Shown here: piece by piece, positions 10,108 to 10,179 of the stretch | Layout of the letters: every line of letters starts with the position of its first letter | Numbering within the stretch: position 1 is the first letter of the stretch | Source of the DNA: a virus | IMG/VR virus record: IMGVR_UViG_3300021197_001388 | Span: 1 to 41,063 of that record | Length of the DNA stretch: 41,063 nucleotides | Strand: one strand, 5' to 3' | Made by a program: the position numbers and the translations under genes | The notes under the pieces: model-generated | Seen by the model: the letters and a program-made list of their open reading frames with translations, nothing else | What the model was told of the DNA's origin: nothing | Databases searched by the model: none

Positions 10108-10179
10108 ATGTGGACCAAACCAACCTACCAAAAGATCCGTCTTGGATTTGAAGTTACTATGTACTTCAAGAACAGCTAA
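10108..10179 (+). CDS. pqqA: PqqA, coenzyme PQQ precursor peptide
   Basis: A 23-residue peptide, the usual PqqA length. It starts MWTKP, has [10 protein letters not shown] in the middle and keeps Glu15 and Tyr19 in the E-V-T-x-Y motif, the two residues that PqqE cross-links to build pyrroloquinoline quinone. Pseudomonas and Klebsiella PqqA peptides begin MW(T/K)KP and carry the same G-(F/L)-E-V-T motif, so identification does not depend on a weak match. It has a strong AAGGAG ribosome site, and copC starts three bases after its stop. No pqqB, C, D or E is present in the window, so the host would have to process the peptide. The phage may raise PQQ supply for quinoprotein dehydrogenases late in infection; this is inference. 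Confidence 0.92.
   Translation: [23 protein letters not shown]

Follow-up and report, generated by a model that had tools for sequence, protein, structure and literature searches.

A selectively maintained viral pqqA gene without pqqB-E, set in a copper-monooxygenase and cytochrome c module

Why would a virus carry the gene for the precursor peptide of PQQ and none of the enzymes that complete the molecule? The question is raised by a 23-codon open reading frame in a marine phage contig of 41,063 bases, the whole of which was analyzed here (the window). A first-pass annotation of the window had placed this reading frame between a copper monooxygenase gene and copC, and had proposed that its product is PqqA. 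The features at issue are as follows.

6789..6796, + strand: possible T4-type late promoter box TATAAATA, recognized by pattern, preceding the whole module
6841..8157, + strand: secreted 438-aa protein joining a cytochrome c to a second PHM-fold domain (Cytochrom_C, 22.6 bits, cut-off 21.3; Foldseek)
8147..8461, + strand: small secreted cytochrome c (PF00034, 27.7 bits, above cut-off)
8454..9155, + strand: secreted protein containing a single CxxCH haem motif (sequence, tblastn)
9148..10095, + strand: PHM/dopamine-beta-monooxygenase-fold protein, secreted, 315 aa (Foldseek; invariant ligands)
10094..10099, + strand: AAGGAG, Shine-Dalgarno site for pqqA, 8 nt before the ATG and overlapping the preceding gene's stop codon
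10108..10179, + strand: pqqA, 23-aa PQQ precursor peptide (PF08042 and TIGR02107 matches; synonymous-only change in three relatives)
10183..10527, + strand: copC, periplasmic copper-binding protein (PF04234, 58.8 bits, cut-off 23.3)

The peptide is confirmed as a genuine PqqA, with scores above both curated cut-offs: it matches PF08042 across profile positions 1-19 of 19 (E=3.7e-9; 36.8 bits, cut-off 21.1) and TIGR02107 (E=1.2e-10; 40.9 bits, cut-off 20). Both Glu15 and Tyr19, the i, i+4 pair that becomes PQQ, are present, and the coordinates first proposed were correct. In a pqqA profile search at whole-contig scale the reading frame still reached E=1.6e-9, which excludes a chance match. The AAGGAG site reported on first reading is there, and most viral pqqA copies have a Shine-Dalgarno site of like sequence and spacing. 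The gene lies 12 nt downstream of the PHM-fold gene and 3 nt upstream of copC. Bacterial contamination of the window was ruled out based on phage-gene neighbors (primase, ribonucleotide reductase, PhoH, and tail lysozyme-like genes) and on the missing pqqB-E. Neither Rfam families nor tRNAs were found in the window.

We then examined how the gene changes among related viruses. The closest relatives (L126, L127, and L128), with flanking DNA that is 95-96% identical, encode an identical PqqA peptide, and each differs from the window pqqA by six synonymous and zero nonsynonymous codon changes. Because these three were found through the monooxygenase and not through pqqA, this result is free of pqqA-search bias. 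Pairwise codon differences among viral pqqA copies amount to 1213 synonymous and 695 nonsynonymous, vs about 867 and 4882 under a random-placement null, an excess that is inflated by the pattern search. With a pattern that demands neither residue, every one of 147 viral matches (all loci) retained Glu15 and Tyr19, although some of these loci had originally been retrieved by a pattern requiring both. The window pqqA is thus a selectively maintained gene, and profile scores together with selection rule out a chance reading frame. With viral genes on both sides in a viral contig, and under purifying selection, it is a candidate auxiliary metabolic gene.

Behind the monooxygenase, pqqA is either whole or missing. 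An intact copy lies closely downstream in 24 of 81 viral loci (a count that includes some near-identical contigs, and one contig entered twice), so the same reading frame does follow PHM genes in other phages, as the first-pass annotation had suggested looking for. The remaining 57 have nothing resembling pqqA, scores are cleanly bimodal (63-69 vs 0.9 or less), and no decayed pqqA was found behind the monooxygenase at any of the 81. Disruption in close relatives, which had been named as evidence that would count against the gene, was therefore not seen: it is intact in the closest and absent rather than broken in others. Its placement varies, being directly behind the monooxygenase, 144 nt further, or behind copC, and a tree built from non-identical monooxygenases requires at least six gains or losses of pqqA, four of them forced by well-supported branches. 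That 57 of the 81 loci have the module and no pqqA is what one would expect of a passenger, a gene acquired from hosts by accident that has yet to disappear, but the lack of any decayed copy, the synonymous-only change, the presence of dedicated ribosome-binding sites, and the repeated gain in unrelated phages disfavor such an origin, which we regard as highly improbable.

The gene is not confined to close relatives of the window. A completed scan recovered 102 viral contigs with a PqqA of the window's type (RLGFE), and a broader scan at least 120 viral contigs, with MWTKPxATEMRFGFEVTMYVMNK as the dominant type among the matches listed. Among cultured phages of Methylophilales, a related PqqA of another type is present in Venkman, MEP301, MEP401, MEP402, P19250A, and Melnitz; a podovirus from Manatee Spring also has a related PqqA. 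In all of these the gene is either unannotated or masked by a hypothetical ORF. For example, pqqA is unannotated in Venkman (4001-4072), whereas in Melnitz-1 (3995-4069) and MW202481 (2119-2190) a hypothetical ORF on the opposite strand covers it. Recurrent neighbors of viral pqqA look, as read from the sequences, like capsid, lysis, small heat-shock, and recombination genes, and most viral copies are without a copper-monooxygenase module in the stretches examined. Though overlooked by ordinary gene callers, this 23-codon gene recurs across hundreds of phage contigs. Cultured Methylophilales phages are among its carriers, and their cultured hosts make its function directly testable.

In the window, by contrast with most viral copies, pqqA adjoins such a module. 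The 315-aa product upstream matches Pfam Cu2_monoox_C only at E=0.19, below cut-off, and a PDB sequence search with the monooxygenase profile gave no match. Foldseek matched the AlphaFold model of this protein (mean pLDDT 65) to human dopamine beta-hydroxylase and rat PHM (4zel, 1phm, and others) with E-values of about 1e-8 to 1e-6 and a probability of 1.00, and the first thirty structural matches are all dopamine beta-hydroxylase and PHM. His88/89, His151, His222/224, and Met299/304 are invariant in 21 viral homologues; the individual copper ligands were assigned by spacing to what we take to be their counterparts in rat PHM. With the PHM fold and all six copper ligands in place, the protein is predicted to be a copper monooxygenase, and CopC is recognized by its profile, so the position first reported for pqqA stands. 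The 438-aa protein returns the same DBH/PHM matches in Foldseek, from a low-confidence model. The C-terminal part of the 8454..9155 protein corresponds to the N-terminal part of a fused haem-PHM gene in most relatives (tblastn). Signal peptides of the module proteins are apparent, as judged by eye.

Positions 6841-10095 thus encode a pair of secreted proteins resembling PHM-fold copper monooxygenases, together with cytochrome c partners, and about 100 viral contigs conserve this module. The 315-aa monooxygenase has 104 viral relatives in IMG/VR, and neither it nor the 438-aa protein has a match among 50,697 sequenced phages. The late promoter that had been placed before pqqA did not hold up equally well: the window has five TATAAATA boxes vs 2.6 +/- 1.6 expected, which is not above chance, and the box is suggestive only.

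The position of pqqA next to copC and copper monooxygenases raises the possibility that PqqA, or a product derived from it, serves lanthanide or copper handling and not the loading of quinoproteins. Orphan pqqA copies of M. extorquens respond to the availability of lanthanides, and participation in lanthanide uptake has been suggested (PMC11317620). We consider a metal-handling role unlikely, given that most viral copies sit beside capsid, lysis, or recombination genes and not metal genes, and that the peptide accompanies PqqB-E in cellular operons.

Two lines of evidence point to the host. In the bacterial family to which a Pseudohongiella MAG belongs, the monooxygenase has expanded: 98 of 119 genomes carry it, commonly in 8-20 copies, and 31 of the 119 have pqqA. 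The nearest cellular PqqAs come from four Pseudohongiella-family genomes and share 17 of 18 core residues with the window peptide. Since both the monooxygenase expansion and this match are found there, the host group of the window phage is probably the Pseudohongiella family (Pseudohongiellaceae), a placement that draws on a 23-aa peptide and on paralogue-rich monooxygenases. Other viral PqqA types match other lineages of the same family about equally well, lineage by lineage. A class-wide search of 369 gammaproteobacterial genomes yielded no RLGFE-type motif, probably because that sample was without the matching Pseudohongiella-family members found later. Among the expanded PHM-like paralogues of the family, one is fused to redoxin-like and haem parts.

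The cellular copies are accompanied by their enzymes. Twenty pqq neighborhoods from the Pseudohongiella family include pqqB, pqqD, and pqqE in every case and pqqC in 19, the single operon without pqqC being cut by a contig end. Gene order differs by peptide type within this one bacterial family, with A-B-D-E-C in RLGFE-type operons and A-B-C-D-E in RFGFE/RYGFE-type operons. A general cellular linkage between the pqq operon and the monooxygenase was considered and rejected, as it is seen in only two of the 20 neighborhoods.

The viral copy, by comparison, stands alone, as the first-pass annotation had noted for the window. We identified no pqqB-E in the 41-kb window (a contig that may be incomplete), none in 315 viral loci apart from one mislabelled bacterial contig, and no PqqE or PQQ_2 enzymes above cut-off in 50 longer virus records (possibly fragments). 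That contig, deposited as "Acinetobacter phage MD-2021a" (CAKLQF020000010.1), has a full pqqABCDE operon and a polyphosphate kinase; the record looks bacterial, and we rejected it as a phage with pqqB-E. Sub-threshold PqqE matches in three virus records were attributed to generic radical-SAM proteins, the same model giving sub-cut-off matches in 14 of 14 control genomes. The sole match to a viral PQQ enzyme partner, also below cut-off, is a repetitive beta-propeller-like ORF beside a probable tail protein and was likewise set aside. Co-occurrence with pqqB-E is usual for PqqA and not obligatory, and its absence from the window does not exclude membership in the family because orphan cellular copies are known.

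A peptide without its enzymes might also act as a decoy that titrates PqqD/PqqE or the maturation protease, halting host PQQ synthesis or diverting host metabolism. The missing enzymes are what a decoy would predict, but a mere binder would not need both Glu15 and Tyr19, which every copy from the undemanding search retains, and the viral peptides resemble the host-lineage peptide nearly residue for residue, as a substrate should. We therefore judge a decoy very unlikely.

We favor, with a probability of roughly three in four, substrate supply: the orphan phage pqqA would provide only the consumable precursor and rely on host PqqB-E for PQQ. The phage would make PqqA, which host PqqD would present to host PqqE; PqqE would cross-link Glu15 to Tyr19, and a host protease, PqqB, and PqqC would complete PQQ. 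PqqA is the only component consumed stoichiometrically, one peptide per PQQ. The catalysts PqqB-E can persist after host genes are shut off, so that a shut-down of host expression would deplete PqqA first and pqqA alone could suffice to sustain or raise PQQ during infection. The PQQ could load host quinoprotein dehydrogenases, which would pass electrons to cytochrome c in the periplasm, where the phage cytochrome c and copper monooxygenases are also expected to act. Such service to the phage's own module is not required, since most viral pqqA copies are without one. That phage PqqA may feed host PQQ synthesis, as first proposed, is well supported by these comparisons, and viruses probably provision PQQ synthesis in the cells they infect.

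The literature agrees with substrate supply on three points. Orphan pqqA copies are known in bacteria (PMC11317620); the same paper, citing Ge et al., names PqqA supply as the rate-determining factor in Methylovorus MP688; and cell extract turns added PqqA peptide into PQQ, in the passage of PMC9851590 that cites Wang et al. On the other side, overexpression of pqq genes often gives only a modest rise in PQQ (PMC9851590), and pqqA was reported to be nonessential for PQQ in M. extorquens AM1, a result that, as it is cited in PMC11317620, did not consider orphan copies. The absence of pqqA from many phages with the same monooxygenase module also counts against substrate supply.

More tentatively, and at somewhat less than even odds, precursor-only carriage (never the enzymes) may be a strategy used by viruses in general, gained many times over by phages whose hosts make PQQ and, in Pseudohongiella-family phages, tied into a viral periplasmic oxidation module. 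If so, copper monooxygenases would make alcohols, PQQ dehydrogenases would oxidize them, and cytochrome c would take the electrons. Cyanophage psbA encodes a protein subunit that is photodamaged. Like psbA, the window pqqA brings only a fast-consumed component of a host pathway; unlike psbA, it encodes a substrate that is converted to a small molecule. The gene points to an economical viral steering of metabolism in which just the used-up part is provided.

Viral pqqA has been described before, contrary to the first-pass annotation. Coutinho et al. (2020) reported PqqA and methanol dehydrogenase in the Lake Baikal methylotroph phage population VP_266 (PMC7678222), and viral pqqA is also listed in a 2026 paper (PMC13188868); in the Melnitz paper PQQ appears only as a medium component (PMC9004378). 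In both VP_266 and the window, phage-borne pqqA is proposed to increase host PQQ. VP_266 is assigned to Methylophilaceae and has its own methanol dehydrogenase, whereas no PQQ enzyme was found in the window, where pqqA instead adjoins the copper-monooxygenase/cytochrome c/CopC module and the likely host belongs to the Pseudohongiella family. Cellular PqqA is of the same peptide family (PF08042, TIGR02107) and is followed by pqqB, D, E, and C. Bacterial orphan copies (Methylovorus, Hyphomicrobium, M. extorquens; PMC9851590, PMC11317620) likewise come without enzymes and are thought to set substrate supply, but they are chromosomal and the window copy is viral. An incomplete search of the literature turned up no account of pqqA in cultured Methylophilales phages and none of the gene being acquired repeatedly or lying in a copper-monooxygenase module. 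The breadth of viral pqqA, its repeated acquisition, and its link to this module thus appear to be new, and the gene connects PQQ with a large family of viral cytochrome c/copper-monooxygenase modules that has so far gone undescribed.

Downstream of copC, at 10670-11408, an overlapping ORF pair resembles an inner/outer spanin pair, one ORF having an N-terminal membrane segment and a coiled coil and the other a lipoprotein-type signal.
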